This document shows positions 5,068 to 30,969 of a stretch of 43,638 nucleotides of DNA, one piece after another. The notes under the pieces were generated by a model that saw only the letters and a program-made list of their open reading frames with translations, had not been told where the DNA came from and ran no database searches. The position numbers were made by a program, and so were the translations under genes. The stretch comes from Methanocalculus chunghsingensis. Its GTDB lineage: Archaea > Halobacteriota > Methanomicrobia > Methanomicrobiales > Methanocorpusculaceae. Numbering within the stretch: position 1 is the first letter of the stretch; each line of letters begins with the position of its first letter. Location of the stretch: the NCBI RefSeq assembly GCF_018132105.1, contig NZ_JWHL01000017.1, forward strand, positions 1 to 43,638, written 5' to 3'.

Positions 5068-8000
5068 ATGGATCCTGCCCCGGGCATTTACGAGCAGCTC
5101 ATCTATGAGCATCTTTCATCCAAGCTCAACCAACTCGATAGGGAAGGCAACTCGATCCAGAGAGAGAAGATAAAAAAATTCGATTCACAGGCGATCCTCT
5201 CGCAGTATCTCCATAAAACGATCCTTCGCACCCTGCGGATTGCTGATGAGGAGCATATTCCACTCGATAGGCAGGTTGCTTTCTGCAACGAGATCATCCG
5301 GCTCCTCTCGTCTCAGCTGAACTATACTGATCTTGAGCTCTGCACAATCACATCAGATGCAGAACTTCTTTTAGCCGTTCAACAGGGTGGACGAACCGGG
5401 GATCGGGTCCTCACCCGGCCCAGGACATCAATCGCTCAGAGCAGTCTCTTTACGGGGTCTCCGAATGAACCAAGCCTGGCAAATGAGTTCAAGCAGGAGA
5501 TCCGATCATCAGATAGAATTGATCTCCTGATATCATTCATCAAATGGAGTGGAATCCGGCTGATCATCGATGATCTCCGCGACTTTGTACAGCGAGGCAA
5601 TACCCTGCGGATCATTACCACATCCTATATGGGTGCAACAGATCTCAAGGCAATCGAAGAGCTCGCGAAACTCCCAAATACAGAGATTCGCATATCGTAT
5701 GATACCGATAGAACGAGGCTCCATGCGAAGACCTATGCCTTCCATCGAAAGACTGGGTTCTCTACTGCGTATATCGGATCGGCTAACATCTCCAATCCCG
5801 CAATGACGAGCGGCCTCGAATGGAACGTCAAGGTGACCGAACAGGACTCAGTGGATATCATTCGAAAGATTGAGACCACCTTTGAGTCATATTGGCATTC
5901 TCCAGAGTTCGTCCTCTACCGGCATGAGAAACGGGACCGGCTGAGGCATGCTCTCTCAAAAGAAACTTCAAAAGAGCCGACCCTCTATCCTGTCTTTGAT
6001 ATTCGGCCATATTACTTCCAGAAAGAGATCCTTGAGCGGCTCCAGGCTGAACGGCAGCTTCATGGGAACTATCGCAACCTGATCGTTGCTGCAACAGGTA
6101 CCGGCAAGACCGTCATCTCGGCATTTGATTATAAGAACCAGATTCCAGATGATAGACAGTACCCCCGACTCCTCTTTGTCGCTCACCGGGAAGAGATCCT
6201 CAGGCAGAGCCTTCAGGTCTTCAGGGGGATCCTCCGGGATCCCAACTTCGGTGATCTCATGGTGGGAGGGAACCGGCCTTCAGAGATCGATCACCTCTTC
6301 GTCTCTATCCAGAGTTTCAACAGTACCAATCTCCCGGAGATGACGACACCTGACTATTATGATATGATCATCGTTGATGAGTTTCATCATGCTGCTGCCC
6401 CTTCGTACCAAGGGCTGCTCTCCTACTATACTCCACAGATTCTTGTCGGCCTCACCGCAACCCCGGAACGGATGGATGGCCTTGAAATCCTCAGATATTT
6501 TGGGGGGAAGATCACTGCCGAGATCCGGTTGGCCGAGGCGATCAACCGGAAACTGCTTGCACCGTTCCACTATTTTGGCGTCACCGATGTCGTCGATCTC
6601 GATGGCGTCTCATGGAAGCAGGGGAGATACGATGCCAGGGAACTCTCAAAACTCTATACCGCGTCCAGCCAACGGGTCGATCATATTATCCAGTCGATCG
6701 AGCGGTATATGACGGATATCCGGGATATCATCGGGCTTGGATTTTGTGTATCCATCGAGCATGCAGAATATATGGCTGCATCCTTCCAGAAAGCCGGTAT
6801 CCCGGCAGCAGCACTCCATAGCCAGAGTTCGAGAGAAGAGAGGCATTCTGTCCAGAAACGACTGGTCACAGGGGAGATCACCTTCATCTTCATCGTCGAT
6901 CTCTACAATGAGGGCGTGGATATCCCGGAGGTCAACACCATCCTCTTCCTCCGACCGACCGAGAGCCTCACCGTCTTCCTCCAGCAGCTCGGCCGTGGGC
7001 TCCGCCTGATGGAAGGAAAGGAATGTCTGACGGTCCTTGACTTTGTTGGGCGGCATAATACCCGGTATCGGTTTGGAGAGAAGCTTCTTGCCCTCCTTTC
7101 ACCAGGCGGCATGAACCTGCAGGCTCAGGTTCAGAGCAGTGCCTATCAGCTTCCAAAGGGATGCCACCTTCATCTCGAGAAGGTTGCTCAGGAGAGAATA
7201 TTAGAGAACATCAAGGCGAATCTCCTGAATAAGCGGTACCTCATCGACCGGATCAAAGGATTTGAGATGGAGACGGGAAAGCCCCTCTCCTTTAGGCGGT
7301 TTCTGGAAGAGCATACACTCACACCAGATGATATCTATGCGAAAGGAACCTTTACACGTCTTGCCTCAGAAGCAGGTGTCTATCCAGAGAAGTACCTGAA
7401 TGAGACTCTCTTCTCAAAGGTGGCTGCACGACGGCTCTCAACCATTGACTCTCCACTTGTTATTGACTGTATTCGATCATTTTTGCAGGATCCGGTTGCC
7501 TTCACAGATCGCCCCCTTACACCAATTGACGAGAAGATTATTGCCCTCTTCTACTACTCCCTCTATGATAGACAGATTACCGATCCCACTCTCTCATTAC
7601 AGGAGATCTTCTCTGATATCCTCGACCATCGGGAGATCGCTGATGAGATTGATGATCTCCTGGGCTATACCTATGATCATATCGAGTTTCTTCCTGAACC
7701 GATTGCCAAAGAGTTTGAGAGCCCGCTTGAACTCCATTGCACTTACACCCGCGATCAGGCCTTTGCAGCTCTCGGCCACCATACCCTGACAGAACGGGCT
7801 GCTGCCGGGATGCGTGAAGGTGTTGTCTATCTTCGAGACCAGAAGATTGACATCTTCTTCATCACCCTGCAGAAGACCGAGGAGCTCTACTCGCCGACGA
7901 CGATGTACAACGACTACGCGGTGACCGACACCCTCTTCCACTGGCAGTCCCAGAACGCTACCTCCGAAACATCCCCAGTCGGCCGCCGGTACATCGAGCA

Positions 8001-8199
8001 TGAAGAGCATGGGACAAATGTACTCTTCTTCGTCCGGGAATTTTCGAAGAACGGCGGTATCACCCAGCCGTTCATCTTCCTTGGGACTGCCCGGTACATC
8101 TCCCATGAGGGGAGCAGGCCGATGAGCATCCTATGGGAGCTTGATCGCCCGATGCCACCGGGGCTGTTTCAGAAGGCGAATAAGGTGATGGTGGAGTAG
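5068..8199 (+). CDS. PLD-like / superfamily II helicase / DUF3427 protein
   Basis: This 1043-residue multidomain protein has an N-terminal phospholipase D-like nuclease region. Its HxK motif is RLHAKTYAF (His about 219), followed by the GSANIS strand. A superfamily II helicase core follows, with Walker A TGTGKT at about 343-348, the DEAH-box variant VDEFHH at about 436-441, TATPERMDG, and motif VI QQLGRGLRL at about 638-646. The C-terminal 200 residues match the layout of DUF3427. Proteins with this order (COG3886 plus COG1061) are widespread, sporadic and often found in bacterial and archaeal defence or mobile regions. The combination suggests ATP-driven recognition and cutting of nucleic acid. 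Only one HxK motif is visible, so the nuclease would act as a dimer or be non-catalytic. It stands alone, with no methylase or other defence partner next to it. Confidence 0.88.
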   Translation: MDPAPGIYEQLIYEHLSSKLNQLDREGNSIQREKIKKFDSQAILSQYLHKTILRTLRIADEEHIPLDRQVAFCNEIIRLLSSQLNYTDLELCTITSDAELLLAVQQGGRTGDRVLTRPRTSIAQSSLFTGSPNEPSLANEFKQEIRSSDRIDLLISFIKWSGIRLIIDDLRDFVQRGNTLRIITTSYMGATDLKAIEELAKLPNTEIRISYDTDRTRLHAKTYAFHRKTGFSTAYIGSANISNPAMTSGLEWNVKVTEQDSVDIIRKIETTFESYWHSPEFVLYRHEKRDRLRHALSKETSKEPTLYPVFDIRPYYFQKEILERLQAERQLHGNYRNLIVAATGTGKTVISAFDYKNQIPDDRQYPRLLFVAHREEILRQSLQVFRGILRDPNFGDLMVGGNRPSEIDHLFVSIQSFNSTNLPEMTTPDYYDMIIVDEFHHAAAPSYQGLLSYYTPQILVGLTATPERMDGLEILRYFGGKITAEIRLAEAINRKLLAPFHYFGVTDVVDLDGVSWKQGRYDARELSKLYTASSQRVDHIIQSIERYMTDIRDIIGLGFCVSIEHAEYMAASFQKAGIPAAALHSQSSREERHSVQKRLVTGEITFIFIVDLYNEGVDIPEVNTILFLRPTESLTVFLQQLGRGLRLMEGKECLTVLDFVGRHNTRYRFGEKLLALLSPGGMNLQAQVQSSAYQLPKGCHLHLEKVAQERILENIKANLLNKRYLIDRIKGFEMETGKPLSFRRFLEEHTLTPDDIYAKGTFTRLASEAGVYPEKYLNETLFSKVAARRLSTIDSPLVIDCIRSFLQDPVAFTDRPLTPIDEKIIALFYYSLYDRQITDPTLSLQEIFSDILDHREIADEIDDLLGYTYDHIEFLPEPIAKEFESPLELHCTYTRDQAFAALGHHTLTERAAAGMREGVVYLRDQKIDIFFITLQKTEELYSPTTMYNDYAVTDTLFHWQSQNATSETSPVGRRYIEHEEHGTNVLFFVREFSKNGGITQPFIFLGTARYISHEGSRPMSILWELDRPMPPGLFQKANKVMVE

Positions 8200-11245: not shown

Positions 11246-12370
11246 ATGATCCAATCACCATTCCTCCTCGCTGATCAGACGCTCTTCAAAAATATCGATG
11301 CATTCGAATTTGATTACATCCCTGATCAGGTCATCTTCCGGGAGGAGCAGATCTCGGAGCTTGCCTTCCGGGTCAGGCCGGGTGTCTTTGGTGCCCGGCC
11401 GGCAAGCGCCATCTGCCGTGGCCCGCCCGGAACCGGGAAGACGACGACGGTGAAACATCTCCTCGCCGAGATTGCAGAATCCCAGAAGAGGCTTGTTCCG
11501 GTCTATGTCAACTGCCAGACCGATCATACCAGGTATGCCGTCTTCTCCCGGATCTACCGGCGGGTCGTCGGCCATGCACCCCCCAGGACCGGTGTTGCGG
11601 CGACGGTGCTTGCCGATGCCATTGCAGCATCGATCATCAAACAGAAGATCGTCGTCCTCGTCTGCCTCGACGACTTTCAGTATCTCCTCTCTGAAGATAC
11701 GGCAAATGCAGTCCTCTATTCGCTTCTCCGGATGTACCTGAACCATTCGGACTGCCGGGTCGGGGTCATCCTGACGACGAGCGAGATGGATCTGGATGTC
11801 TCCCGGGTTCTCGAAAGCGGGGTCGCCTCCTCCCTCTGTGCCGATGACATCTCGTTTCCCCGGTACACTCCGGACGAGATCCGCGAGATCCTCAGGATCC
11901 GGGTTCGGGAAGCGGTCTGGCCGGGGGTCATCAGCTCCGAGGTCCTCGATCTCATCGTCTGGAAGACCCACAAGGCTGGCGATCTCCGGGTCGGGCTCGA
12001 TCTCCTGAAACGGGCCGTCCTGATGGCTGAGCGGAATGCGAGATCCTCGGTGGTCCGGGAGGATATCCTCCTCGCCTATGGGGATGCACGACTCATCACC
12101 CTGAAGAAGATGATCCGGGTCCTGCCGCCGGGGGAACGGGCCCTCCTCGATCTGATCGCCGACTCCGGCGGAGGCGATCCCCTGACCTCGGGCGAACTCT
12201 ACAACCGCCTCACCGATGATGAGGAGATATCCTACACCACCTTCTATGAACGACTGAAGCGGCTTGCGGAGTATGGCCTCGTCAATCTCCGGATTCGGCA
12301 GAAGAAGGGGAGGACGAGCGTCATCACGCCCCGGTATGAGGCTGAGGAGATCCAGGCGGTGAGCAGGTGA
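11246..12370 (+). CDS. cdc6: Orc1/Cdc6 replication initiator, copy 2
   Basis: This 374-residue AAA+ protein has Walker A GPPGTGKT at residues 59-66, Walker B VVLVCLDDF at about 136-144, and a C-terminal winged helix (EEISYTTFYERLKRL and onward, about 315-360). It is a paralogue of copy 1 at 1677-2816. The two share the N-terminal FRE-Q-ELAFRVRPG block, the NC-TD motif after the first strand, HAPPRTG, and the RKGRTS wing. Archaeal Orc1/Cdc6 proteins bind origin repeats as ATP-bound monomers and recruit MCM. Two initiators about 9 kb apart, in opposite directions, suggest that an origin could lie in or near this window. The next gene downstream is a toxin relic. Confidence 0.92.
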   Translation: MIQSPFLLADQTLFKNIDAFEFDYIPDQVIFREEQISELAFRVRPGVFGARPASAICRGPPGTGKTTTVKHLLAEIAESQKRLVPVYVNCQTDHTRYAVFSRIYRRVVGHAPPRTGVAATVLADAIAASIIKQKIVVLVCLDDFQYLLSEDTANAVLYSLLRMYLNHSDCRVGVILTTSEMDLDVSRVLESGVASSLCADDISFPRYTPDEIREILRIRVREAVWPGVISSEVLDLIVWKTHKAGDLRVGLDLLKRAVLMAERNARSSVVREDILLAYGDARLITLKKMIRVLPPGERALLDLIADSGGGDPLTSGELYNRLTDDEEISYTTFYERLKRLAEYGLVNLRIRQKKGRTSVITPRYEAEEIQAVSR

Positions 12371-12846: not shown

Positions 12847-12860
12847 CGCAACATCTCGCC

Positions 12861-12953
12861 ACTCTTTTGGCATTGCACCCCTCTCGAGCCTCGATCCACA
12901 GGCATTGGAGAAGAGAGGCCGGGAGATATGCCAACCCCGACATCCATCCCCTG
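12861..12953. repeat. dispersed intergenic repeat, copy A
   Basis: About 93 bp here match 18461-18554. Both begin ACTCT, contain GGCATTGCA, share GAGGCCGGG followed by GCCAACC, and end GACATCCATCCCCTG. No gene is visible in 12847-13059. Copy B has an inverted repeat (GGGGATGG and CCATCCCC) that is degraded here. Confidence 0.7.
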
Positions 12954-13059: not shown

Positions 13060-13332
13060 ATGAACGGGAACGAGGGAGATGCCGGGATGGGGCGGGAGAG
13101 GACGACCCGCGACCTCGTCCTCGAGACGCATCAGGATGTGAAATGGATCTGCCGGGCTCTTGAGCGGATCGAGGCAGAGAACAGGGAGTATGCCGCCCGG
13201 CTCCGGGCAGTTGAGGAGTGGCGTTCCGAGAAACGGGGCGAGGAGCGGCGGGCTTCGGCTGTGGGGACGGTGGCAGGTGGTGTTGTTGGCGGGGCGGTGG
13301 CAGTGATTGTGAAGATTCTGGGCGGGGGGTGA
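13060..13332 (+). CDS. small coiled-coil protein with C-terminal membrane segment (90 aa)
   Basis: AGGAGG lies nine bases before the ATG. Residues about 15-65 form a charged helix (CRALERIEAENREYAARLRA, then EEWRSEKRGEERRA). The last 23 residues are a glycine/alanine/valine-rich hydrophobic helix (VAGGVVGGAVAVIVKILGGG). This layout resembles XhlA-like phage accessory proteins and other tail-anchored small proteins, but no family can be claimed. Its stop codon lies inside the fossil CRISPR repeat at 13329-13365, so it sits at the scar of a lost array. Confidence 0.6.
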   Translation: MNGNEGDAGMGRERTTRDLVLETHQDVKWICRALERIEAENREYAARLRAVEEWRSEKRGEERRASAVGTVAGGVVGGAVAVIVKILGGG

Positions 13333-13440
13333 ACAGGCTGGTTTTCGTGGAACCCCGTCTGATAAAATCAAATGTCTTCCTTCCCCCGGATAATCTTTTC
13401 TCTCCGATCCGTTTGTTCAGGGTAGGAAACCTGAACTGCC
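13329..13440 (-). CRISPR. fossil CRISPR leader with one degenerate repeat
   Basis: TTTTCGTGGAACCCC at 13342-13356 is identical to the core of the array repeat, and GTCTGATAA follows where the intact repeat has TTCTGCTAC. The next 75 bp align with the array 1 leader (18283 onward): TCAAAT, TTCC, CGGATAATC against CAGATAACC, CTCCGATCC against ATCCGCTCC, and TCAGGGTA. The leader TATA box (TATATAAACC in array 1) has become AGGAAACC here. The orientation matches array 1. It looks like a dead third locus whose other repeats were lost. Confidence 0.8.
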
Positions 13441-13470
13441 TCGGTCCAAAAGGCCGGGCGGCAGTACTCC

Positions 13471-13779
13471 TCAGAGGATGACAAACGCCCTCTTCCGGTA
13501 CTCATCTTCATTAAAGGCTTTCCCAACAACAACCTTCTTCGTCAGGCAGGTATCGCAGAGGGTGAAGATCAGGATGCTGTCCGTCTCTGTCCGTTCATCA
13601 GCTGGAAAATCATTGAACAGCTCGGTGATCCGGAGTCCGACCCGTTCAACCTGCCGGGTCGTCAGCTCGCCGAAGAAGATGCTCTTCTGGAACCGGGCAA
13701 GCCCGTGATCCAGGCAGGCATCCGCGATCCGCTGCCGGAGAGGCGTGGAGGTGATGTCATAGAGTACCCAGGCAAACAT
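13471..13779 (-). CDS. cas2: CRISPR integrase subunit Cas2
   Basis: This 102-residue Cas2 has the N-terminal ferredoxin-like strand FAWVLYDIT with the conserved Asp (residue 8). RFQKSIFFGEL follows, and a strand SILIFTLCDTC lies in the C-terminal half. I start it at ATG 13779, which has GAGGG upstream and leaves an 11-base gap after cas1; an ATG at 13800 would overlap cas1. Cas2 forms the core of the Cas1-Cas2 spacer integration complex. No cas4 is visible. Confidence 0.92.
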   Translation of the reverse strand: MFAWVLYDITSTPLRQRIADACLDHGLARFQKSIFFGELTTRQVERVGLRITELFNDFPADERTETDSILIFTLCDTCLTKKVVVGKAFNEDEYRKRAFVIL

Positions 13780-13790
13780 GATGATCCCTC

Positions 13791-14780
13791 TTATGACCAC
13801 TGGCGGGTAAACGGCGTGTAGGGACGTCCTTCGTTGATGCTATGGACTGCCTCACGCATATTGTCGAGGATCACGCTGGAGAAGGTCGTCTCCCTCCCAT
13901 CGATCTCCTGTTCCAGGGTAAGCCTCCCTACAACCTCCGCGATGATCACCTTCCGGGCATCCTGTGTCAGGTATCCCCGTTCATCGCACCCGTCAGATCG
14001 GAGGCGTCCCCGGACCGCGAGCGTAATGATCCCCCGATCAACCACCGGTTGCCGGAACTGCTCAATCACGTCATAGACAAACGGCGTCTTCCCATACCGA
14101 TCCGCATGGAGGATGCCGATACCGGGATCGAGTCCGGCAAGAAGGCAGGACTTCTCCACCTCGTTATAGAGGATCCCATAGCCATAGTTCAGGGCTGCAT
14201 TGAAGACATCCTCGGCAGGCCGGTGCGTCCGGGTTCCATGATAGCTATCCGGCGGGAGGACGTGGGCGAGTGCTTGAAAATACCGCCGCGACGCCTCCCC
14301 TTCAATACCCCGGAGGAGCGGGGCATCATCAGGGAGTATCCCCGATGGCGGCACTCCGGCAGCGGCAACCCGGATCGTCTCCCCTTCCGAGACGAGATCA
14401 GGGCGATCCCGGCGTCTCCCGAGTGCCTGGATGAGCGAGCCCATATTAAAGAGCTTGGCACGGATGATGGATGCGATGAAACTGTACCCCTCCGGACTAC
14501 TGGAGAAGAGCACCTGGTTCTTCCTGGTTGCAGCCGTCCCGGTCACGGAACAGGGGACAAGCCGGCAGACCGGTCTTCCGTCCCGCCCGATGACCGCGAT
14601 GTCGGTACCGTTCCCTGCCGCCAGTGCCATCGCCCCGGTTGTCACCGTTGCCGCATCCGAGAGGAGGATCTGCCGGAGATCAGATGCGGGGAACTCCCGG
14701 ATCTCTCCCTCGGACTCGATGACAAAACGGTTCTGCTTCCGCCGTATAACAGCCCCATATCCGTTAATGACGCAGTACAT
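13791..14780 (-). CDS. cas1: CRISPR integrase Cas1
   Basis: The product is 329 residues if started at ATG 14780 (MYCVINGYG); a TTG three codons earlier is an alternative. The metal-binding residues of the family are visible: Glu in GIEGEA (about 160), His in GILHADRYG (about 225) and acidic residues in YDVIEQFR (Asp 237, Glu 240). Cas1 catalyses insertion of new spacers at the leader end. It is transcribed in the same direction as array 1 and lies beyond its leader-distal end, in an operon with cas2. Direct repeats upstream (14809-14848) may control it. Confidence 0.95.
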   Translation of the reverse strand: MYCVINGYGAVIRRKQNRFVIESEGEIREFPASDLRQILLSDAATVTTGAMALAAGNGTDIAVIGRDGRPVCRLVPCSVTGTAATRKNQVLFSSSPEGYSFIASIIRAKLFNMGSLIQALGRRRDRPDLVSEGETIRVAAAGVPPSGILPDDAPLLRGIEGEASRRYFQALAHVLPPDSYHGTRTHRPAEDVFNAALNYGYGILYNEVEKSCLLAGLDPGIGILHADRYGKTPFVYDVIEQFRQPVVDRGIITLAVRGRLRSDGCDERGYLTQDARKVIIAEVVGRLTLEQEIDGRETTFSSVILDNMREAVHSINEGRPYTPFTRQWS

Positions 14781-14808
14781 CCTACTCAACCACCCGGCAG
14801 ATCGCCTG

Positions 14809-14848
14809 TATAATAGTATCCTGGTGAGAAGACCGGGATAATAGTATC
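14809..14848 (-). promoter_or_regulatory. direct repeats upstream of cas1, probable promoter region
   Basis: TATAATAGTATC at 14809-14820 and ATAATAGTATC at 14838-14848 lie 29 bp apart in the short region between cas1 and array 1. On the minus strand they read GATACTATTAT, which is TATA-like. One copy could be the promoter and the pair an operator. This is inference from position. Confidence 0.4.
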
Positions 14849-14905
14849 TCTTTGAATCTCCCGGGGCATCTGGGGAACAGGGGGTGAGGTTATGCCAGGG
14901 GATGC

Positions 14906-17900
14906 GTGGGGAGCCTTGTTTTCGTGGAACCCCTTCTGCTACAAAATTGTATCAAGAATTGAACGATGAAGCTAAAGAGCTTGTTGCAATCCTTGTTTTC
15001 GTGGAACGCCTTCTGCTACGTTGCTTTGCCATTCTAACAAGTCGCGCCAAAAAAAAGTTGCAATCCTTGTTTTCGTGGAACCCCTTCTGCTACTACCTTG
15101 ACACAGAAAACAACCTGACTTGTCCAATTTGTTGCAATCCTTGTTTTCGTGGAACCCCTTCTGCTACCATGGTTCCGGAACCCTATGTTTACGACCAAGG
15201 GTCACGGTTGCAATCCTTGTTTTCGTGGAACCCCTTCTGCTACGACGAGACACCCGCGTACTCTGTCCTATATGCGATGTTGCAATCCTTGTTTTCGTGG
15301 AACCCCTTCTGCTACAGCGAGGAACTCTTCTAATTTTTGGAAGTGAAAAAAATGTTGCAATCCTTGTTTTCGTGGAACCCCTTCTGCTACCACTTGATAC
15401 ACTTCTCCGTGAGTTCAGACCCTGCAGTTGCAATCCTTGTTTTCGTGGAACCCCTTCTGCTACTATACGCACGCACGCACACCCCGGTCTACACGTTGCA
15501 ATCCTTGTTTTCGTGGAACCCCTTCTGCTACGAGGTAGAGCGGGCAGGCAGGCAGGCAGGGCGACAGCGTTGCAATCCTTGTTTTCGTGGAACCCCTTCT
15601 GCTACGACCTAGTCTGCCCCGTATGCGGTAAGACAATACGTTGCAATCCTTGTTTTCGTGGAACCCCTTCTGCTACGCTTGGTACGTCGTCGCGGAGACC
15701 AGTCGGGGCGAAGGTTGCAATCCTTGTTTTCGTGGAACCCCTTCTGCTACGTTAATTTAGTAGGATATACAAGTCACAAAAGGATGTAGTTGCAATCCTT
15801 GTTTTCGTGGAACCCCTTCTGCTACATAAGAAGTTCACTGTATTACTCGAGAAGGAGATCTCCGTTGCAATCCTTGTTTTCGTGGAACCCCTTCTGCTAC
15901 GACCATTAAACGCATATTTCCCACTCCGAACAATTCTTGTTGCAATCCTTGTTTTCGTGGAACCCCTTCTGCTACATGGATGAGGCACACGAATACGAGC
16001 CAATCCAGAAATAGTTGCAATCCTTGTTTTCGTGGAACCCCTTCTGCTACCGATGGAAACTATGATCATCTCCTGAAAACCTGTATGGTTGCAATCCTTG
16101 TTTTCGTGGAACCCCTTCTGCTACAGTATGCGGCAAGACAATACAGGTCGTTAGTACTACGTTGCAATCCTTGTTTTCGTGGAACCCCTTCTGCTACGGG
16201 TATCAGCTAAAAATATCGATTCATTGGTTAACAAGTTGCAATCCTTGTTTTCGTGGAACCCCTTCTGCTACTGAATTATGAAACAGATGGATGAGATTAT
16301 AGAAACTGTAGTTGCAATCCTTGTTTTCGTGGAACCCCTTCTGCTACTCCATAACAACGGAGGGTGGGTATAATGGAGAACCAGTTGCAATCCTTGTTTT
16401 CGTGGAACCCCTTCTGCTACGAGGTTGACCAGAAGGTCGCCGATAAGTCAACTGCATTAGTTGCAATCCTTGTTTTCGTGGAACCCCTTCTGCTACATCT
16501 TCAAATGGTGAAATATTACGCTTCTGGCGTAGTTGCAATCCTTGTTTTCGTGGAACCCCTTCTGCTACGAGTGTCTTGGTATAGACGAAGGCAGAGTTCT
16601 TCATAAACTGTTGCAATCCTTGTTTTCGTGGAACCCCTTCTGCTACGAAAAAGCAATCCTTACATCAGAAGGCACCATCTTGTTGCAATCCTTGTTTTCG
16701 TGGAACCCCTTCTGCTACTGATAAAAAATGGAACCATTAAAAGTAATATTAAAAGAGTTGCAATCCTTGTTTTCGTGGAACCCCTTCTGCTACGCGGGAG
16801 GATGGACAACAATGGAACCATTAAAAGTACTGTTGCAATCCTTGTTTTCGTGGAACCCCTTCTGCTACCGTACAGCCCAGCAGCCACCCATTACCCATAA
16901 CAGAGGTGTTGCAATCCTTGTTTTCGTGGAACCCCTTCTGCTACTTGTAGGAGTCGTAGACCCCTACGGTTTCGCATTCTGTTGCAATCCTTGTTTTCGT
17001 GGAACCCCTTCTGCTACTACCGACCAGCTGCCGGCGTCGGTGAACGTGCCCTGGGTGTTGCAATCCTTGTTTTCGTGGAACCCCTTCTGCTACGATACTC
17101 ATGTCCGATAACATCGAACATAGCTATGACGGTTGCAATCCTTGTTTTCGTGGAACCCCTTCTGCTACGCGGGGCTCCTGCGCCCGTAGTAATTGATCTT
17201 GAGGCTGTTGCAATCCTTGTTTTCGTGGAACCCCTTCTGCTACCAAATCTCAGCGATGCGGATCTCAGCGGTGCAAATCTGTTGCAATCCTTGTTTTCGT
17301 GGAACCCCTTCTGCTACGATTGACCTCCTCCAACCCATTGCCGTCCTCCTCGGCATGTTGCAATCCTTGTTTTCGTGGAACCCCTTCTGCTACACCCCCT
17401 CGCCGGGGTGGTTGCCGGGGGATGCTGAACTGGTTGCAATCCTTGTTTTCGTGGAACCCCTTCTGCTACGTGGATTCAAGGAACCAGAGTCGAACGAATA
17501 CTGTGGTTGCAATCCTTGTTTTCGTGGAACCCCTTCTGCTACATCGGTGAAGGGATGATCACTCTCACCGACGCCCCCGAGTTGCAATCCTTGTTTTCGT
17601 GGAACCCCTTCTGCTACCCCGGGTTGCCTGGTCAGCGCAGTTCGCTGACCAAGGTTGCAATCCTTGTTTTCGTGGAACCCCTTCTGCTACTATCGAACAA
17701 AATAAAACTATGCTCAGAGTATGTCTATGTTGCAATCCTTGTTTTCGTGGAACCCCTTCTGCTACAAGTATGAAGATTTTTTTGAAGTGTTCATTTCTCC
17801 GTTGCAATCCTTGTTTTCGTGGAACCCCTTCTGCTACAATTATCCAATTTGTCCAATTTTCCCCAAAAACCAGTTGCAATCCTTGTTTTCGTGGAACCCC

Positions 17901-18282
17901 TTCTGCTACCGCAATGACAACGGAAGAATTACAGCAGGAGAACGAGTCGTTGCAATCCTTGTTTTCGTGGAACCCCTTCTGCTACCATACACGGAGATGT
18001 GATTTGATGAATTATGATACGGTTGCAATCCTTGTTTTCGTGGAACCCCTTCTGCTACGCGAGATATGGATCTGGCCATCCCAGACCCACATACTGTTGC
18101 AATCCTTGTTTTCGTGGAACCCCTTCTGCTACGCGGTTCATCCCATGATATCATAGGGTGATATGGAGATGTTGCAATCCTTGTTTTCGTGGAACCCCTT
18201 CTGCTACTATATACTCTCGGCGTGGTTCGTTCATGGTTATTAGGTGTTGCAATCCTTGTTTTCGTGGAACCCCTTCTGCTAC
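14906..18282 (-). CRISPR. CRISPR array 1: 46 repeats, 45 spacers
   Basis: The 37-bp repeat begins GTAGCAGAAGG and ends ATTGCAAC when read on the minus strand, the transcribed strand according to the leader at 18283-18455. Spacers are mostly 34-40 nt. All repeats from 14983 on end in C at the spacer junction. The two leader-distal repeats are decayed: 14906-14942 differs in the ATTGCAAC end, and 14983-15019 has a C to G change in the CCCC tract. The final eight bases resemble the AUUGAAAC-type 5' handle of type I-B/III crRNAs. The repeat has no stop codon on either strand in several frames, so long spurious reading frames cross the array. Confidence 0.98.
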
Positions 18283-18455
18283 AGGGTCAAATTTGTTCCT
18301 TTTCCCAGATAACCCTTTCTATCCGCTCCTTTTTGTCAGGGTATATAAACCGGACGACCCCCTCCGATCACCTTTTCCGCATTTTTGCAAAATTCCAAAC
18401 TTATTTTACTATTATTTTTCAATTTAATCGATGTAAATCAAATCTCCGAGGTTTT
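18283..18455 (-). promoter_or_regulatory. leader and promoter of CRISPR array 1
   Basis: These 173 bp match the leader of array 2 (28270-28441, reverse orientation) with only scattered differences, ending after CTCCGAGGTTTT. The TATA box TATATAAA at 18342-18349 (read on the minus strand as TTTATATA) predicts transcription starting near 18315, about 30 bases before the first repeat. The distal part is AT-rich. Confidence 0.88.
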
Positions 18456-18460
18456 CCGGC

Positions 18461-18554
18461 ACTCTGCAGGCATTGCAACCCTGCCGTGCCCGAATCCGGA
18501 GGTAAATGGGAAAAAGAGGCCGGGGGATGGGCCAACCACGACATCCATCCCCTG
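18461..18554. repeat. dispersed intergenic repeat, copy B, with inverted repeat
   Basis: This copy matches 12861-12953 over about 90 bp. GGGGATGG at 18523-18530 pairs with CCATCCCC at 18545-18552, a perfect 8-bp stem. It lies between the array 1 leader and the end of the lipoprotein gene at 18571, and no gene is seen. Confidence 0.7.
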
Positions 18555-18570
18555 GCAATTGCTCCCTTAA

Positions 18571-19149
18571 TCAGCTCAGCCGGATGAAGCCGGCCGGGCC
18601 ACCGAAGAGGGATGTATAGGCGAGCATCGCCTCCTTCCCGACCGGGACCTGGAAGACGAGCCACCCCTCGGCAGAACCGCCCCGGATCAGTGTCGTTCCC
18701 TTGTAGTCCGCGTGGGTTCGTGGCAGCACCACAAAGGACGGGCCGTTTCCTGCCCCCTCAACATAGACCTGGTACTCATACGAGCTCGTGTACTCGCTCC
18801 CGTCCCCTGAAGCAAAGCGTTTCCGGACCTTGACGAGAAGATACTCGAAACCGGCGTCAGGCTCGGAGTTGAACATATTCCCCTCCTGGATGAGGTTGTT
18901 TGCCTGCCTGCCCCGGATCACCTCAAGGACGGTGATCTCAAATGTCTTCTGGCCGGATGTCACGACGAGCGCCTCGTTCATCCCGGCAGTGACAAGATCG
19001 GATCCCGCCTCTTCCTCCGGAGGAGCGGTCTGGTCGCTACCGGTGGTCGGTGCAGGGCCTGTTGAGACCGAATCCGGCCCGACACACCCGGCAACCATGA
19101 TCGCGAGGAGGAGAACTCCTGCTATGAAAACAACTTTTCTTTGTTGCAT
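18571..19149 (-). CDS. lipoprotein with DUF4352-like domain
   Basis: The 192-residue product has a lipoprotein signal peptide (VVFIAGVLLLAIMVAGC, Cys at about 22). A low-complexity Thr/Pro/Glu linker follows, then a beta-sandwich-like domain (KTFEITVLEVIRG, EYLLVKVRKRFASGDG, GWLVFQVPVGKEA) typical of DUF4352 secreted proteins. The layout suggests an envelope protein of unknown binding partner. It is transcribed divergently from the membrane gene at 19303 and is probably unrelated to CRISPR function. Confidence 0.8.
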   Translation of the reverse strand: MQQRKVVFIAGVLLLAIMVAGCVGPDSVSTGPAPTTGSDQTAPPEEEAGSDLVTAGMNEALVVTSGQKTFEITVLEVIRGRQANNLIQEGNMFNSEPDAGFEYLLVKVRKRFASGDGSEYTSSYEYQVYVEGAGNGPSFVVLPRTHADYKGTTLIRGGSAEGWLVFQVPVGKEAMLAYTSLFGGPAGFIRLS

Positions 19150-19302
19150 AAAAATATGTTAGAACTATATAGTTGATAAATCTTTTTATTAGGTTAGTTT
19201 AATCATTAATCATACTACACAATATAAAAACAATAAAAATTATTTATAACTTCAATAGTTAAAGCAACCAATTATAAATATGATTGAAACATAACTTTGA
19301 GC
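19150..19302. promoter_or_regulatory. AT-rich divergent promoter region
   Basis: This 153-bp region is very AT-rich. ATTATAAATA at 19271-19280 is a plausible TATA box for the membrane gene starting at 19303, giving an almost leaderless mRNA. TTTATCA on the minus strand (about 19175-19181) could serve the lipoprotein gene in the same way. No other gene is seen. Confidence 0.5.
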
Positions 19303-19647
19303 ATGTCAGATGCAGATACACGCCCATTCTGGCTCGGCGTCATCGGGGGCCTCCTCGGGATCGCTGCTGCCTTCTTCGCCTTCTTCATATCCTTCCTTGG
19401 TACCGGCCTTGCCGGAGCGGGAACCGGGGCCGGGGAGGAGTTCGGGACAATCCTCCTGCTTGGGGTCGCCGCCCTCATCTTCTCGGTATCCGGGATCGTC
19501 GGAGGGAGCCTCAGGAGCAACCGTGCCGGGGGATGGGCGATGGTCCTGTCAGGGATTTTCGTCCTGATCTCCGTCTCGCTCTTCGGAGTTCCGACCTTCC
19601 TTCTCTTCCTCATCGGGGGGATTCTGAGGCTAACCAGCCATTCGTAA
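19303..19647 (+). CDS. four-helix membrane protein, DUF4064-like
   Basis: I start at ATG 19303 (MSDADTRPFWLGVIGGLLG). The 114-residue product has four hydrophobic spans at about residues 9-32, 46-66, 76-92 and 93-110, with glycine-rich ends, much like the DUF4064 family of small membrane proteins. It lies 90 bp upstream of cas10 on the same strand. I see no separate TATA box for cas10, so co-transcription is possible. Whether it belongs to the type III response is unknown; membrane proteins do occur as ancillary factors there. Confidence 0.65.
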   Translation: MSDADTRPFWLGVIGGLLGIAAAFFAFFISFLGTGLAGAGTGAGEEFGTILLLGVAALIFSVSGIVGGSLRSNRAGGWAMVLSGIFVLISVSLFGVPTFLLFLIGGILRLTSHS

Positions 19648-19737
19648 GGGGTGTTACCATTACCTCCCCCCTTCAATCTGAGGGCGATATGAAGAGAGAG
19701 TGGAACAACCGCAACCGATGCGTACCGGATCACCATT

Positions 19738-22206
19738 ATGTCAGAAATCAATCGAAATGTTTACCGTTGCATACACCAATCAGGAGATGTGGAGCCTGAT
19801 ATTCAATCACTGGTGTATGCAGCCCTCCTCCATGATATCGGTAAGTTCTACCAGAGGACAGGGGCAAAGCATGCAGAGGAATATGAGGAACTCACGGAGA
19901 AGGATTATGGATACAGCGGAGCCCATGCCAAATGGTCGGCTGACCTGATCCGAAGAGTGTTTCATGATAAACAGCTTGAAGACCTCGTTCTTCATCACCA
20001 TCAACCGCAGGCCTCGGCATATCGGAACCTTGCAGAGATCCTCCAGGAGGCAGATCATATCTCTGCCGCCATCGACCGGAGCAGGCGGGATGAGAAGGGT
20101 GATCCAAAGAGAGAGCATCTCTGGAGTATATTCTCCGGGATATCTCTTGGTGGAACTCAGCAGGAGGTGAACGGATCAGACTGGCATCACAGGCTTCTTC
20201 CATTCACCCTCACCAGGGAGGCGTTCCCGACCAGGGAACAGGATCCATACCACTGGAAGAACGATGTTCCGTACTCCCGGCTCTGGGCAGAGTTTTATCG
20301 TGAGCTCTCAGAGGCAGGGAGGAGGCCGCACCCGACGACCCTCCTCGCACTCCTCCGTAAGTATACCTCATCGATCCCCTCGGCAGCGTATGTCGATTAC
20401 CCGGACATTCCCCTCTATGATCATGCGAAGACGACGGCGGCACTCGCCACCTGCATCGCCGCCGGTGAGGGAAAATCACCGTACCTGCTTGTACAGGGCG
20501 ATCTCTCCGGCATCCAGCGGTTCATCTTCGATGTCAGGACCCCGGAGGCGGCACGGAAAGGGATGGCAAAGCGGCTCCGGGGGCGATCATTTTGGATCTC
20601 TCTCCTGGCCGATGCGATCGTCCATGAGATCATCGAGGCGGCCGGGGTATCTGAAGCGAATATCCTCTGGAACACCGGTGGAAACTTCCTCCTCCTCCTC
20701 CCAGGGAACAGCCGGGTGGAGGAGGCGATTGGCCGGGTCCGGAGAAGTGTCAATACCGGCCTCCTCCGGGAGACCGACGGGCGGCTCTACTGTGCATTCG
20801 GGAGCCTTGCCTGCAACCGGGGTGAGATCGAGGACTTTGCAGACTGCCTTGAGCGGCTGCACCTCATCACCGGTCGGCAGAAGCTCAGGAAGTTCTCTGA
20901 ATGCCGGATCAGCAGCACCCCCACCGGGGAAGAGACCGATCTCGAGGGCTTCTGCCCCATCTGCGAACACCGCAAAAGTGCGGGGATCTGTCCCACCTGT
21001 ACGATGCATGAAGAGCTTGGCCAGCGGCTTGCCCATGCATCCTGTTTCAGCAGGGGAAGTGGCCTCCGGTTCGGCTTTGCGGAGTTTGGCCTCTTGGCAC
21101 GGTATGATCTCACCGAGAAGCCGTTTGCAGAACCCCCGGAGTTCACCGCCACCATAAACAGTACCGACTTCCTCAGGACCGGGTCACCGGCGATGAGCTT
21201 CATCCTCCTTGGGAATACGGTTCCGCTGCACAAGAGGCGGATCCTGACCTTCGGGGAGCTTGCAGAGGTCTCGCAGGGGGATCCGAAGCTTGGTATCCTG
21301 AAAGCGGATGTCGATAATCTCGGCAAGATCTTTGCTCTTGGAATCGGGGAGAGGAAGAAGCGGTCGATATCGCGTATCTATACCCTCTCCTCAGGGTTTG
21401 AGCACTTCTTCAGCGGGTACCTCAATACCCTCTGCCGGACGTTTGGGATCTATACCCATCTCTGCGAAGAATGCAGAAACGGTGCCCGCGAGATCTCCCT
21501 CCACCATGATGAGCGGGAGAGGGAGGACGACGAGGCCGTCCGGACGAGCTGGACCGCCTATGAAAAAGAGACCGCATGCCCCTCATGCGAACACCACTTC
21601 GTCCCGACCCTCTACATCACCTTCTCGGGGGGGGACGATCTCCTGATCATCGGCCCCTATGACCATATCATCAGGTTTGCCGGACTCCTCCAGTCGGAGT
21701 TTGAAGCATATACCTGCAACAACCCCTGGATATCACTCTCTGCCGGGGTGGTCGCAGTGCCGCCAAGGATGCCGCTTGCCCATGCAGTGGCGATGGCAGA
21801 AGATCATCTTGAGGAGGCGAAACGACAGGGGAAGAGCCGGGTAGCCATCTTCGGCGAATGCCTCCCATGGAAGGACAGAACCCTTGAGAAGGGATATGCC
21901 TCCCTCCTCAGCCAGGGGGAGGCGCTTGAGGCCGCCCTCACCGGGAAGGCAGTCAGCCGGAGCTTCATCCATGCCACCCATGCCATCTGGGAGGATGCAT
22001 TCGCCGATCTCGATGATATTGATGATGTCTTGGAGAAGGCGGCGAAACGGGAGGCACGGCGACGGTATCTCCCGTACCTGAAGTACCAGATCGCACGCAA
22101 TGTACCGAAGAATGAGAAGAAACGGATCGAGGATCTCATCCTTCCCTCCTTTGGCTGGGCGAGGTTTCCGATCACATGGACAGTTATGAGAACCAGGAGG
22201 AAGTAG
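19738..22206 (+). CDS. cas10: type III-A Cas10/Csm1
   Basis: This 822-residue protein is the large subunit of the Csm complex. The N-terminal HD nuclease motif is LLHDIGKFYQR (His-Asp at residues 32-33). Zinc-binding cysteines appear in CPICEHRKSAGICPTC (about 406-421), with more in CEECRNG and CPSCEHH. The palm cyclase motif SGGDDLL (GGDD at about 631-634) is intact. By family knowledge the HD domain cuts single-stranded DNA, and the palm makes cyclic oligoadenylate when target RNA is bound. The downstream CARF proteins fit the use of that signal. csm2 starts immediately after the stop codon. Confidence 0.96.
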   Translation: MSEINRNVYRCIHQSGDVEPDIQSLVYAALLHDIGKFYQRTGAKHAEEYEELTEKDYGYSGAHAKWSADLIRRVFHDKQLEDLVLHHHQPQASAYRNLAEILQEADHISAAIDRSRRDEKGDPKREHLWSIFSGISLGGTQQEVNGSDWHHRLLPFTLTREAFPTREQDPYHWKNDVPYSRLWAEFYRELSEAGRRPHPTTLLALLRKYTSSIPSAAYVDYPDIPLYDHAKTTAALATCIAAGEGKSPYLLVQGDLSGIQRFIFDVRTPEAARKGMAKRLRGRSFWISLLADAIVHEIIEAAGVSEANILWNTGGNFLLLLPGNSRVEEAIGRVRRSVNTGLLRETDGRLYCAFGSLACNRGEIEDFADCLERLHLITGRQKLRKFSECRISSTPTGEETDLEGFCPICEHRKSAGICPTCTMHEELGQRLAHASCFSRGSGLRFGFAEFGLLARYDLTEKPFAEPPEFTATINSTDFLRTGSPAMSFILLGNTVPLHKRRILTFGELAEVSQGDPKLGILKADVDNLGKIFALGIGERKKRSISRIYTLSSGFEHFFSGYLNTLCRTFGIYTHLCEECRNGAREISLHHDEREREDDEAVRTSWTAYEKETACPSCEHHFVPTLYITFSGGDDLLIIGPYDHIIRFAGLLQSEFEAYTCNNPWISLSAGVVAVPPRMPLAHAVAMAEDHLEEAKRQGKSRVAIFGECLPWKDRTLEKGYASLLSQGEALEAALTGKAVSRSFIHATHAIWEDAFADLDDIDDVLEKAAKREARRRYLPYLKYQIARNVPKNEKKRIEDLILPSFGWARFPITWTVMRTRRK

Positions 22207-22686
22207 ATGTCATATAATAATTTGTATGGTAAGGGCCAGGGTCAGAACCGCGGGGGATCATACGCCGGCGGTGGAAGTCAGGAGTTTATAAAGAAGATAC
22301 AGGAAGCCAGAAACCTCTCGGGTATCACCGTCGAGGAGGTCGCCCGGGAGGATGGGATCGCCGAGTCGGCTGCAAAGGCGTTTGGAAAGAACCTCAAGAC
22401 GACACAGCTGAGGAAGTTCTTCGATCAGGCAAAGTCGATCGAGGCGGGGCTGAAAGAGGACGGATGGGAGTCGGTGAGTGCGGATTTTGCAATGCTCCGG
22501 CCGATCCTCGCCTATGCGAAAGGGAGGAGGCTGATCCCGGATGACTTCTATCTCTTCATCTCATCCTGCATGGCAAAGGTCCTTGCACCGGATAACGACA
22601 TGGAGATGACGAAGAAGAACTACATCAGGTTCATCCAGATCCTCGAGTCAGTGGTGGCGTACCACAAATATCACTATGGAGAATAG
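22207..22686 (+). CDS. csm2: Csm2 small subunit
   Basis: The 159-residue product has a Gly/Asn/Gln-rich N-terminal tail followed by a helical bundle (TTQLRKFFDQAKSIEAG, then LRPILAYAKGRRLIPDDFYL and a final YIRFIQILESVVAYHKYHYG). The layout is as expected for Csm2, which lines the crRNA-target duplex. The ATG directly follows the cas10 TAG, so translation is probably coupled. It is slightly longer than usual because of the tail. Confidence 0.93.
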   Translation: MSYNNLYGKGQGQNRGGSYAGGGSQEFIKKIQEARNLSGITVEEVAREDGIAESAAKAFGKNLKTTQLRKFFDQAKSIEAGLKEDGWESVSADFAMLRPILAYAKGRRLIPDDFYLFISSCMAKVLAPDNDMEMTKKNYIRFIQILESVVAYHKYHYGE

Positions 22687-22697
22687 GAGCGAGAGAT

Positions 22698-23432
22698 ATG
22701 ATAGAATTCATCGAAAATTACCGTATATCAGGAAAGATCATCTGCCAGACCGGTCTGCATATCGGGGGCTCATCAGATACACTCGGAATCGGGGGATCGG
22801 ACAGCCCCGTCATCCTTGACCGCATACAGAAGGTCCCGATCATCCCCGGCTCATCCCTGAAAGGGAAGATGCGATCAGCACTTGAGCTGAAGTATTCAGG
22901 CCTCTGGCTTGACAAGAGTGAGGGAAAGGTCCATACCTGCAAAGAACCCGGCTGCAACCTCTGTACAACGTTTGGCCGTGGCGCAACAGAGCGGGTCATG
23001 GCCGGCCCGACCCGCCTGATCGTCAGGGATGCGATGCCGGATGCAGTGACGAAGGAGGCCTGGAAGGACAAGGACGGCATCTCCCATGGGACCGAGATCA
23101 AGGGGGAGAACTTCCTCAACCGGATCACCTCCATGGCGACGCCCCGGTTCATCGAGCGTGTCCCCGCAGGCTCCGCCTTTGACTTTGAGATGATCTTTAC
23201 CATCTACTCTCCCGAGGATCAGGACCGGCTGAAGCTGGTGCTTGAGGCGATGAGCATCCTCGAGGACAGCTATCTTGGCGGGAGCGGATCGAGGGGCTAC
23301 GGAAAGATCGCCTTTGCCGATATCGTGATTGCACGGAAGGATCCGGATTCGTACCGTGAGGGGAGAGACTGGGAGCCGCTGACGAAGGCCGAGGGGGAGA
23401 CGACGGCACGCGGAATCCTCGCATCCCTCTGA
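22698..23432 (+). CDS. csm3: Csm3 backbone RNase
   Basis: This 244-residue RAMP protein has HIGGSSDTLGIGGSDSPVI near the N terminus. The Asp at residue 35 corresponds to the catalytic Asp33 of Streptococcus thermophilus Csm3, so backbone RNA cleavage at 6-nt intervals is expected. PGSSLKGKMR at 50-59 and the glycine-rich loop GGSGSRGYGK near 194-203 are family features. CKEPGCNLC (about 75-83) may bind zinc. It lies 11 bases after csm2. Confidence 0.96.
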   Translation: MIEFIENYRISGKIICQTGLHIGGSSDTLGIGGSDSPVILDRIQKVPIIPGSSLKGKMRSALELKYSGLWLDKSEGKVHTCKEPGCNLCTTFGRGATERVMAGPTRLIVRDAMPDAVTKEAWKDKDGISHGTEIKGENFLNRITSMATPRFIERVPAGSAFDFEMIFTIYSPEDQDRLKLVLEAMSILEDSYLGGSGSRGYGKIAFADIVIARKDPDSYREGRDWEPLTKAEGETTARGILASL

Positions 23433-23448
23433 TATATGGAGCCGGGAT

Positions 23449-24390
23449 ATGCGTACCGTTTACATAACACCCACCTCGGCCTTTCCCCGGACGCTGCCGT
23501 CAAATACGCTCTTTGGGGCGATCTGCTCGGCGATGGCGGAGCTTGGGGGGCCGGTCGGGGATCTGGTCGCCGCATTTGAAGAGGATCCCCCGTTCCTCCT
23601 CACATCGGCGTTCCCCTGGTTTGGGGAGGAGGAGAAGGTGCATCTCCTCCCTGCCCCGATCCTCCCTCCGGAGAAACTCCCCGGAGAAGCACTCTTTGAT
23701 GCCGCAAAGAAGCTCAGGAAGGTCTCGTACCTCCAGAGCGGGATATTTGCCTCGCTGGTTGAGGGGCGGCTCTCAGATGACGAGATACTCCGGGATCTGG
23801 ACCGGGGCGACGGGAAGTACCGGATCGGATCGGGGATGCTGTACGAGAAGAAGCAGGATCACCACTTTGAGATCAGCCGATCCGAGATCCCGCATAACCG
23901 GATCAACCGCCTCTCGGTCGCCTCCGAAGCCTTCTTCGCATCGGAAGGATTCAGGTTCTCCAATGCAGGATTATACTTCCTGATCGACTTCAAAGAGAAG
24001 GCATGGGAGAATGAGGTGCTGGCGGCACTCCGTCTCCTTGCAGACCGGGGTTTTGGTCCCAAAGTCTCAAGCGGCCAGGGCGCCTGCTCCATCTCCTTTG
24101 GAGATACCGATATCCTCCCCACATCTACGGGAGAGCGGATCGTCACCCTCTCCCGCTATCTCCCCGACGACTTCGATCTTCTCGGCGAGGATGCCTTCTA
24201 CAACCTCGTCAGGATCCGGGGGAGGAGTGCCGACGGCGTGATGAAACGGTCGGTGATGATGCTCGGTGAAGGGTCGGTCTTCCCTGATACCGGGGACGAT
24301 GTGTACGGCGGGATCGCCCGTGTCCGGGACGATCCCCCGGTCGTTGAGTACGGGTATGCCTTCCCGATCCGTTTCAGGAGTGCAGCATGA
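23449..24390 (+). CDS. csm4: Csm4 (crRNA handle-binding RAMP)
   Basis: This 313-residue RAMP protein starts with an N-terminal strand MRTVYITPTSAFPRTLPSNT and the LFGAICSAMAELGG helix. It has a glycine-rich loop DRGFGPKVSSGQGACSISFG at about 200-219. Csm4 caps the complex, binds the 5' crRNA handle and contacts Cas10. Its last four bases (ATGA) overlap the start of csm5, which shows tight translational coupling. Confidence 0.92.
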   Translation: MRTVYITPTSAFPRTLPSNTLFGAICSAMAELGGPVGDLVAAFEEDPPFLLTSAFPWFGEEEKVHLLPAPILPPEKLPGEALFDAAKKLRKVSYLQSGIFASLVEGRLSDDEILRDLDRGDGKYRIGSGMLYEKKQDHHFEISRSEIPHNRINRLSVASEAFFASEGFRFSNAGLYFLIDFKEKAWENEVLAALRLLADRGFGPKVSSGQGACSISFGDTDILPTSTGERIVTLSRYLPDDFDLLGEDAFYNLVRIRGRSADGVMKRSVMMLGEGSVFPDTGDDVYGGIARVRDDPPVVEYGYAFPIRFRSAA

Positions 24391-25547
24391 GGGTTGAGCT
24401 GAAGACAGTAACACCGGTCCATGTCGGATCCGGTGGAAAGTACGGAGGAGCCGAGATATTCAGGGTGAGGGAAGGGTATGCCCGGACCGGGATTCGTGAT
24501 GTCGTCTCCCTCCTTGAGGGCAGGGCGTATGAGGACTTCCTCTATGAAGTGGAAGAGCCGGGGTTCTCGCTTCAGAAGTTTATGGAGCGGCATCCGCTCT
24601 CGCCACCGGCGCGATATACCCTGAAATCATCCATTCCACATCCGCCAGGTGAGGTTCGGGAGATCATCAGAACCGGATTTGATATCCCGTACATCCCGGG
24701 ATCGACGGTGAAAGGGGCGATCCGGACGGCATTGCTATGGAAGGCATGCAGGGATGACCCCTCGTTCCCCCCGGAACGGCTCTATTCCCGTAATAAACGG
24801 ATGATAGGGAAGGAAATCTTCGAGGGGATCCTCTCAACAAACAGCAGAAGGTACGATCCCAAGTATGATCTCCTCCGGTTCCTTGAGGTCTCGGATTTCA
24901 TGCCGGTGAAACATTTCCTCTATCTGGAAGAGTTCGGGACGTACTCCATGTCACGGAACGGCATTATGGCGCCCAAACCATTCACCATCCCCTGTGAGAC
25001 CCTCTTTGCCCGCCTGGAGGGAACGATCCGGCTCTCCCCGGAGATCGAGGCGGCGGCAGGCCACCGGGATCTCTCGCTGCTTGAAGGCAAGCTCCCGCTG
25101 CTTGGGCTGAAAAAGAGCGATATCAGGGGACTCTCCGATCCGTTGGTCCTGCAGGCGGCAGAAGAGAAGATGACCGCACATCTCCGCTCGGTGATGCGGC
25201 AGTTCATCGAGGCGGCACTCCTCCATGATCTCCGTCTTGTGAGCGGTTCGGGAGCCCCTTCGCCACTGAGTACCGAGATCCAGACGATGCAGAAGAAGCA
25301 TGCCGGGATGGATCTCCTTCGGGTCGGGTTTTCTATCGGGACGACCTACCAGACAGTGATGGATCTCATCGAGGAGAAGGATCCCGATCTCGCATCGGCG
25401 ATAATTACGGATATGAAACTGGGAAGATATCCCCGCTCATATGACGGGGAAGCACTGGATCCCCCGTATCCAAAGAGTATTGAGTTTATTCGGACGAATG
25501 GAGAACTGCTGATGCCGGGGTGGGTGGAATGGTTACCCTCTTCATGA
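24387..25547 (+). CDS. csm5: Csm5 (3' end RAMP)
   Basis: The 386-residue product opens with LKTVTPVHVGSGGKYGG and has PGSTVKGAIR at about 104-113, both characteristic of Csm5. Csm5 caps the 3' end of the complex and takes part in crRNA trimming. It overlaps csm4 by four bases, and the following CARF-HEPN gene by 19. Confidence 0.94.
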   Translation: MRVELKTVTPVHVGSGGKYGGAEIFRVREGYARTGIRDVVSLLEGRAYEDFLYEVEEPGFSLQKFMERHPLSPPARYTLKSSIPHPPGEVREIIRTGFDIPYIPGSTVKGAIRTALLWKACRDDPSFPPERLYSRNKRMIGKEIFEGILSTNSRRYDPKYDLLRFLEVSDFMPVKHFLYLEEFGTYSMSRNGIMAPKPFTIPCETLFARLEGTIRLSPEIEAAAGHRDLSLLEGKLPLLGLKKSDIRGLSDPLVLQAAEEKMTAHLRSVMRQFIEAALLHDLRLVSGSGAPSPLSTEIQTMQKKHAGMDLLRVGFSIGTTYQTVMDLIEEKDPDLASAIITDMKLGRYPRSYDGEALDPPYPKSIEFIRTNGELLMPGWVEWLPSS

Positions 25548-26731: not shown

Positions 26732-27399
26732 CACACAGAACTCTCTACCTGGTTATGGAGACGGATCGGCCTGTCACCGAAAGCGGAACACAGCTCCGGG
26801 GATGTATCGCCGGGCAGTATCCGGATCGCCCCCTCCTGCACCATCATGCCCCCCAGCTTATCTATACCTACCCCCGGGTACAGTACCGGGTGATCGAAGG
26901 GACGCCGTCTGTCCTTGGGATCGATGACGGGGCAGACGAGCTCCGTGCCATCGTCGGGGATCTGCATGAGCTGACACTTGGGAACAGCCGGTACCGGATT
27001 ACCCGGAAGGCGACCTATGAGATGGAGGGGGCTATCCGCCCGATCCGTGATCTCCGGTCGTACCGGTTTACCAGCCCCTGGATCGCCCTCAGCACAAAAA
27101 ATTATGAGATCTACCAGAATGCCGGGGGCTGGCGCGAGAGGAAGGAACTGCTCAACAGGATCCTGATCGGTAATATCCTCTCGATGGCGAAAGGGCTTGA
27201 TATTGTCATCTCACGGGAGATCCGGGTCAGAACACATCTTGATCCGGTGGCAGTCCGGTATAAAGGCATCGGGATGACCGGGTTCACCGGGGAGTTCCAG
27301 ACGAATGTTATCATCCCGGAGTTCTTTGCACTCGGAAAAGGGGTATCTCAGGGGTTTGGCACCGTCATCCCCGATCGGTCTGCCTCCCCAGAAGGATAG
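26728..27399 (+). CDS. cas6: Cas6 crRNA endonuclease (Cas6b type)
   Basis: The 223-residue product has an N-terminal LRGCIAGQYPDRPLLHHHAP with a YPRVQYRVI strand, as in Cas6b, and a C-terminal glycine-rich loop FALGKGVSQGFGTV. HHH near residue 37-39 may include the general base. Cas6 cuts the repeat to release crRNAs with an 8-nt handle and would serve both arrays, since their repeats are the same. It overlaps the preceding gene by ATGA, and converges on the CARF gene with a 35-bp overlap of coding ends. Confidence 0.9.
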   Translation: MTHRTLYLVMETDRPVTESGTQLRGCIAGQYPDRPLLHHHAPQLIYTYPRVQYRVIEGTPSVLGIDDGADELRAIVGDLHELTLGNSRYRITRKATYEMEGAIRPIRDLRSYRFTSPWIALSTKNYEIYQNAGGWRERKELLNRILIGNILSMAKGLDIVISREIRVRTHLDPVAVRYKGIGMTGFTGEFQTNVIIPEFFALGKGVSQGFGTVIPDRSASPEG

Positions 27400-28141: not shown

Positions 28142-28269
28142 CAGTCTCTCCACCTCAATCCTTTTGAATATTACCAAAGGACCGCCTCTCATCTTGCTCC
28201 CTCCCGAGGCGGAGAGATGGATGTGGGGATGGGGGAGGGGATGATATGGAAAACTACGGAATGGGTATG

Positions 28270-28441
28270 AAAACCTCGGAGATTTGATTTAAACCGATTA
28301 AATTGAAAAATAATAGCAAAATGAGTTTGAAATTTTGCAAAAATGCGGAAAAGGTGATCGGAGGGGGTCGTCCGGTTTATATACCCTGACAAAAAGGAGC
28401 GAATAGAAAGGGTTATCTGGGAAAAGAAACAAATTTGACCC
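28270..28441 (+). promoter_or_regulatory. leader and promoter of CRISPR array 2
   Basis: These 172 bp are nearly identical to the array 1 leader in reverse orientation. The TATA box TTTATATA at 28376-28383 predicts transcription starting near 28407, about 35 bases before the first repeat. The homology ends at AAAACCTCGG near 28270, close to the start of the divergent CARF gene. Confidence 0.88.
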
Positions 28442-30930: not shown

Positions 30931-30969
30931 GGTTCAGTGTTGTATGATCGACATTCGGAAAACAGTCAT

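Follow-up and report, generated by a model that had tools for sequence, protein, structure and literature searches.

The locus and the question

The window, the whole stretch of 43,638 nucleotides from Methanocalculus chunghsingensis that was analysed, holds a type III-A CRISPR-Cas locus with two live arrays and, beside cas2, a short piece that looks like the start of another. What is this piece, how was it reduced to a leader and one repeat, and could it still do anything? The original prediction called it a fossil, and we keep that word.

The locus has csm1 (cas10) to csm5, cas6, the adaptation genes, and arrays all present. On the minus strand lie cas2 (13471–13800; PF09827, TIGR01573), cas1 (13791–14789; PF01867, TIGR00287), live array 1 (14914–18282), and leader 1 with its TATA box (L1, 18283–18456). 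The effector genes csm1 to csm5, a CARF-HEPN gene (TIGR02710), cas6, and csx14 occupy 19738–28192. The plus strand carries leader 2 (L2, 28269–28441) and live array 2 (28442 to about 30931), which has a degenerate repeat at its trailer end (about 30896–30931). Leader 2 is an inverted copy of leader 1, with a 96 per cent match over 173 nt. Leader pairs within a genome are closer than pairs between genomes (58 of 61 columns in the window and 60 of 61 in genome G028; pairs also occur in G057 and G004), which suggests that leaders are homogenised within genomes.

A truncated repeat and an eroded leader beside cas2

The fossil is homologous to the live leaders. In a search of the organism's own genome (fifty-one contigs), a local alignment matched 13338–13424 to 18255–18343, which comprises leader 1 and the first repeat of its array, at 79 per cent identity (E = 1.9e-14); the same stretch matched leader 2 at 76 per cent (E = 6.4e-11). 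These alignments bear out the claim that a leader-like sequence related to both live leaders lies here in the orientation of array 1. The resemblance outside the repeat core is also well above chance: the leader part alone (13368–13424, 57 ungapped nt) scored 54 against L1, compared with a maximum of 29 over 5000 Markov shuffles; in a scan of both strands it was the sole clear match in the window apart from the live leaders. A chance or spurious alignment is ruled out by the genome-wide E-value for leader 1 and by the shuffles of the leader part, none of which reached its score.

Homology extends over about 95 nt, from about 13338 to 13432, so that the extent first proposed (13329–13440, 112 nt) was too long. 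Read on the minus strand, the element consists of a truncated CRISPR repeat (13338–13365), a leader running from the repeat to the former TATA box (13366–13424), and an eroded promoter site (13425–13432). A further stretch (13433–13470), which contains a hairpin of modest stability (fold z-score −1.95), separates the eroded leader from the stop codon of cas2.

The fossil leader is identical to leader 1 in 46 of 61 columns, and the fossil repeat to the live repeat in 23 of 29 alignment columns (four mismatches in 28 when viewed without gaps). Near the leader–repeat junction the fossil has a 2-nt deletion. The repeat had been described as a degenerate one of 37 bp; it is indeed degenerate, but it is not of full length. 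In the crRNA sense, positions 1 to about 28 are kept and positions 29–37 are gone. The missing outer 8–9 nt are the side of the crRNA 5′ handle, ATTGCAAC, and a direct test for the handle found CCTGTTCAC where GATTGCAAC is expected, so the 8-nt 5′ handle is not kept. No second repeat was found to the left of the fossil in 13180–13329 (150 nt), where the best score was 11, a value matched by 67 per cent of shuffles.

The promoter is gone as well. In nine of eleven live leaders, drawn from several families, TTTATATA lies 57–59 nt from the repeat (seven exact copies and two with one mismatch). The two leaders of G057 do not match it, and that genome may use a different box. At the homologous site of the fossil (alignment columns 96–107) the sequence is GGTTTCC where the live leaders carry GGTTTATATACC; compared on the promoter strand, the live GGTTTATATACC stands against GGTTTCCTACC in the fossil. 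No 8-mer anywhere in 13329–13470 matches TTTATATA at more than five of eight positions. The alignment of fossil and live leaders and the 8-mer scan thus agree with the prediction that the TATA box was lost at its live position.

An array beside cas2 in related genomes

We compared the surroundings of cas2 in relatives using tblastn of the window's proteins and a repeat scan. The order cas1-cas2-leader-array was found in G004, from the same genus, and in G060, G057, G035, and G028, from four other families of the order. In these five relatives, from five families, the 3′ end of cas2 is followed immediately by an intact leader, oriented as the fossil is, and the synteny comparison therefore shows an intact array beside cas2 in each of them. 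Because the order of the csm genes and the placement of the second array vary among species, it is the cas1-cas2-leader-array block that stays constant in the locus. We take the intact array beside cas2 in the five relatives to mean that the fossil is the remains of an ancestral, cas2-linked array. A search of GTDB contigs for closer relatives of cas1 returned only UBA456 (a Methanocorpusculaceae archaeon and the closest that bears a name), Methanospirillum stamsii, and more distant ones. In G028, the cas1 gene beside the intact array is broken across two frames (L065 9777–10771), possibly by a frameshift.

The edge of the CRISPR island

On its other side the fossil abuts the stop codon of a phrog_1103-like gene for a small protein (13060–13332, plus strand). 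The ortholog of this gene in the close relative G007 is 88 per cent identical over residues 1–90 and has the same stop. The TGA at 13330–13332 falls in the projected footprint of the repeat, and the G007 gene ends identically with no repeat there, so the TGA is native flank and not repeat sequence. The claim that this stop codon lies inside the fossil repeat is therefore not sustained.

Homology to G007 breaks off at 13333 and starts again at 31102, which correspond to adjacent bases in G007. The segment between them (13334–31101; 17,768 bp), a 17.8-kb CRISPR island with the fossil as its left edge, is missing from the orthologous place in G007. The join in G007 and the edge of the fossil are both within four bases of the stop codon of the gene at 13060. 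The clean join of 13333 to 31102 favoured a simple insertion of the island into an empty, G007-like site. This explanation was weakened by a piece of repeat that G007 keeps even though the whole locus is missing there: 18 nt of exact CRISPR repeat (L059 14548–14565, contig G007:C9), about 170 nt upstream of a Gln-rich unit, the middle one of three in tandem. The G007 stretch with this piece aligns with 30896–31101 of the window, the trailer region of array 2. Since the remnant sits at the place of the array 2 trailer, it is more likely that the locus was already present in the common ancestor and that the island disappeared from G007. The window has one Gln-rich unit, a low-complexity ORF at 31203–31760, compared with the three in tandem in G007, and a weaker copy of the repeat piece lies between the next two Gln-rich units of that genome.

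Collapse or truncation of the ancestral array

Taken with the two live arrays elsewhere in the window, the stump and the intact cas2-side array of the relatives make it very probable that the fossil is a non-functional relic of a third array. This array would be ancestral, would have started just 3′ of cas2, and would have been transcribed away from cas1-cas2; its spacers were most simply lost by recombination or slippage, with decay to follow. Of the two origins that the original prediction offered, the collapse of a third locus fares better than the other, in which the stump would be where a larger, since rearranged array once had its leader-proximal end.

Collapse could have proceeded as follows. 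Recombination (or replication slippage) between the leader-proximal repeat and an already truncated terminal repeat would have removed all of the spacers, leaving only the leader and one repeat with the features of a terminal repeat, right beside the neighbouring gene's stop codon. Decay would then have followed in the stump, with the TATA box removed by a small deletion accompanied by substitutions, two bases dropped from the leader–repeat junction, and drift in the leader. The two surviving arrays, with their near-identical leaders, would have carried on.

The way in which the fossil repeat ends bears on this step. An end at position 28–29 is shared by the fossil and by the terminal repeats of array 1 in the window, array A of G004, and the array of G027; only these three of about eleven terminal repeats examined end exactly there, the others ending elsewhere or being of full length. 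A review of spacer dynamics reports that terminal repeats are often changed at the 3′ end, and that recombination of the leader-adjacent repeat with the trailer repeat could eliminate an array and leave one copy (PMC8047081). As the fossil repeat ends like these terminal repeats, the stump is the product expected from collapse. No intermediate still holding a few spacers turned up, and repeat recombination was thus not seen directly. The terminal repeats at 14914–14942 (which ends at position 29), L061 2754–2782, and L069 about 2020–2050 belong to different species and stop just before the 8-nt handle, where Cas6 would be expected to cut; it is as if, in the last crRNA, selection maintained nothing but the 3′ handle.

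The main alternative to collapse is truncation. At the left edge of the island, the cas2-linked array may have been cut within the first repeat by an insertion, deletion, or rearrangement and fused there to the stop codon of the gene at 13060, which would make the fossil a relic of the same array by another route. We consider this possible, if somewhat doubtful. The fossil does lie at the edge of the 17.8-kb segment, where homology to G007 ends and later resumes at adjacent bases; cas1-cas2 has shifted relative to the csm genes among G004, G035, and the window; and a plain deletion at the island edge would yield a nearly identical stump. However, the cut would have had to hit position 28–29 by chance, where several terminal repeats end, and would have had to hit the first repeat out of the whole array. 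The remnant of the array 2 trailer in G007 also suggests that the island was lost there, in which case the junction in that genome is not necessarily the mark of an insertion.

An old paralogue that changes faster than the live leaders

At eleven sites of the leaders the fossil sides with L1 and L2 and differs from the two G004 leaders; at four others it matches one of the G004 leaders where L1 and L2 do not. The fossil thus belongs to the lineage of the window, as an old paralogue and not as a fresh copy.

The fossil also evolves faster than the live leaders. In a maximum likelihood tree its branch is 0.4 changes per site long, compared with about 0 for L1, and each outgroup leader lies nearer to leader 1 than to the fossil. 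Whichever of the nine outgroup leaders is used, changes found only in the fossil outnumber those found only in L1 (10:2 with the leader of array A in G004, two-sided P = 0.04), though the nine comparisons are not independent and most are not significant singly.

A further explanation is that a live leader and its first repeat were recently copied beside cas2 and never extended. Such a nascent array would account for the fossil leader being nearest to the leaders of its own genome (the 46 of 61 columns shared with L1). We find it very improbable, since five relatives have an intact array at this very site, and since L1 and L2 differ from each other at three of the 61 columns and the fossil at fifteen; the four sites shared with a G004 leader also speak against a fresh copy.

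Function and similarity to known systems

The stump is unlikely to have a function, judging from its sequence. With no promoter, no handle, no second repeat, an altered junction, and excess change, neither a working array nor a guide of the CreA type is to be expected. A functional array, even a miniature one, was rejected on two of these features, as there is no second repeat around a spacer and no promoter in the leader.

A CreA-like gene would be a degenerate, ectopic repeat that makes a crRNA-like RNA and steers a Cas complex to regulate a gene. A lone degenerate repeat outside an array and beside archaeal cas genes is what creA and CreTA loci generally look like (PMC9458426, PMC8501985), and the fossil shares this much. 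In CreA the 8-nt 5′ handle is retained and there is no leader (PMC8501985), whereas the fossil is the opposite on both counts. CreA, a CRISPR-regulated antitoxin RNA, is further marked by a small transcript that pairs with the promoter of a toxin gene. CreA also has a promoter and belongs to a type I system; the fossil has neither a TATA box nor, within 150 nt, a second repeat, shows excess change rather than conservation, and sits in a type III-A locus. We therefore give a CreA-like role very little credence. Just as improbable is some other remaining use of the stump, for example that Cas1-Cas2 docks at this promoterless site and thereby tunes adaptation at the two live leaders, or that Cas6 recognises it as a part of the 3′ untranslated RNA of cas2.

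Solitary repeat units of viruses and Racr RNA anti-CRISPRs (PMC8616872, PMC10651486) likewise consist of one isolated repeat. They are borne by viruses, whereas the fossil lies within a cas locus, has a leader, and lacks a promoter; since it is flanked by cas2 and by a chromosomal gene that G007 shares, we reject the reading of it as a virus-borne unit.

The closest likeness to the relic of a third array is with collapsed or degenerate arrays (PMC8047081), with which it shares a leader and a single repeat, a 3′ end like that of a terminal repeat, the loss of the promoter, and the persistence of live arrays of the same family. It differs in that its ancestral position beside cas2 can be checked in five relatives and in that the leader itself is eroding. 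Degenerate arrays have also been listed in Pyrobaculum (PMC3396285). Our search of papers on CRISPR in the family Methanocorpusculaceae found nothing specific.

The fossil is a relic of a known kind, produced by ordinary genome decay that is unusually well documented here, and it changes no principle of CRISPR biology. It records the death of an array, with the promoter, the leader–repeat junction, and the crRNA handle gone and two other arrays alive; the window would once have had three array loci, of which the cas2-linked one was lost. It also cautions against assuming that a lone degenerate repeat beside cas genes is a regulatory RNA.

Other features of the neighbourhood

A direct duplication of 98 bp (77 per cent identity) links 12857–12953 with 18457–18554, and no copy was found in the other genomes of the genus that were searched. 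The first copy sits to the left of the gene at 13060, in a segment that G007 lacks, and the second starts exactly where the identity of leader 1 with L2 ends.

Two genes for Cdc6-like AAA ATPases with winged-helix ends lie at 1677–2816 and 11246–12370. This family occurs in multiple copies (or pieces) in the genus, with twelve matches in G004 and thirteen in G001. At 5068–8199 is a gene for a large PLD-helicase protein, and its match to a type IV restriction enzyme model marks the neighbourhood as rich in defence genes. The homolog of this protein in G004 is on contig C11 (L086), the start of which holds CRISPR repeats that appear to continue the second array of G004.
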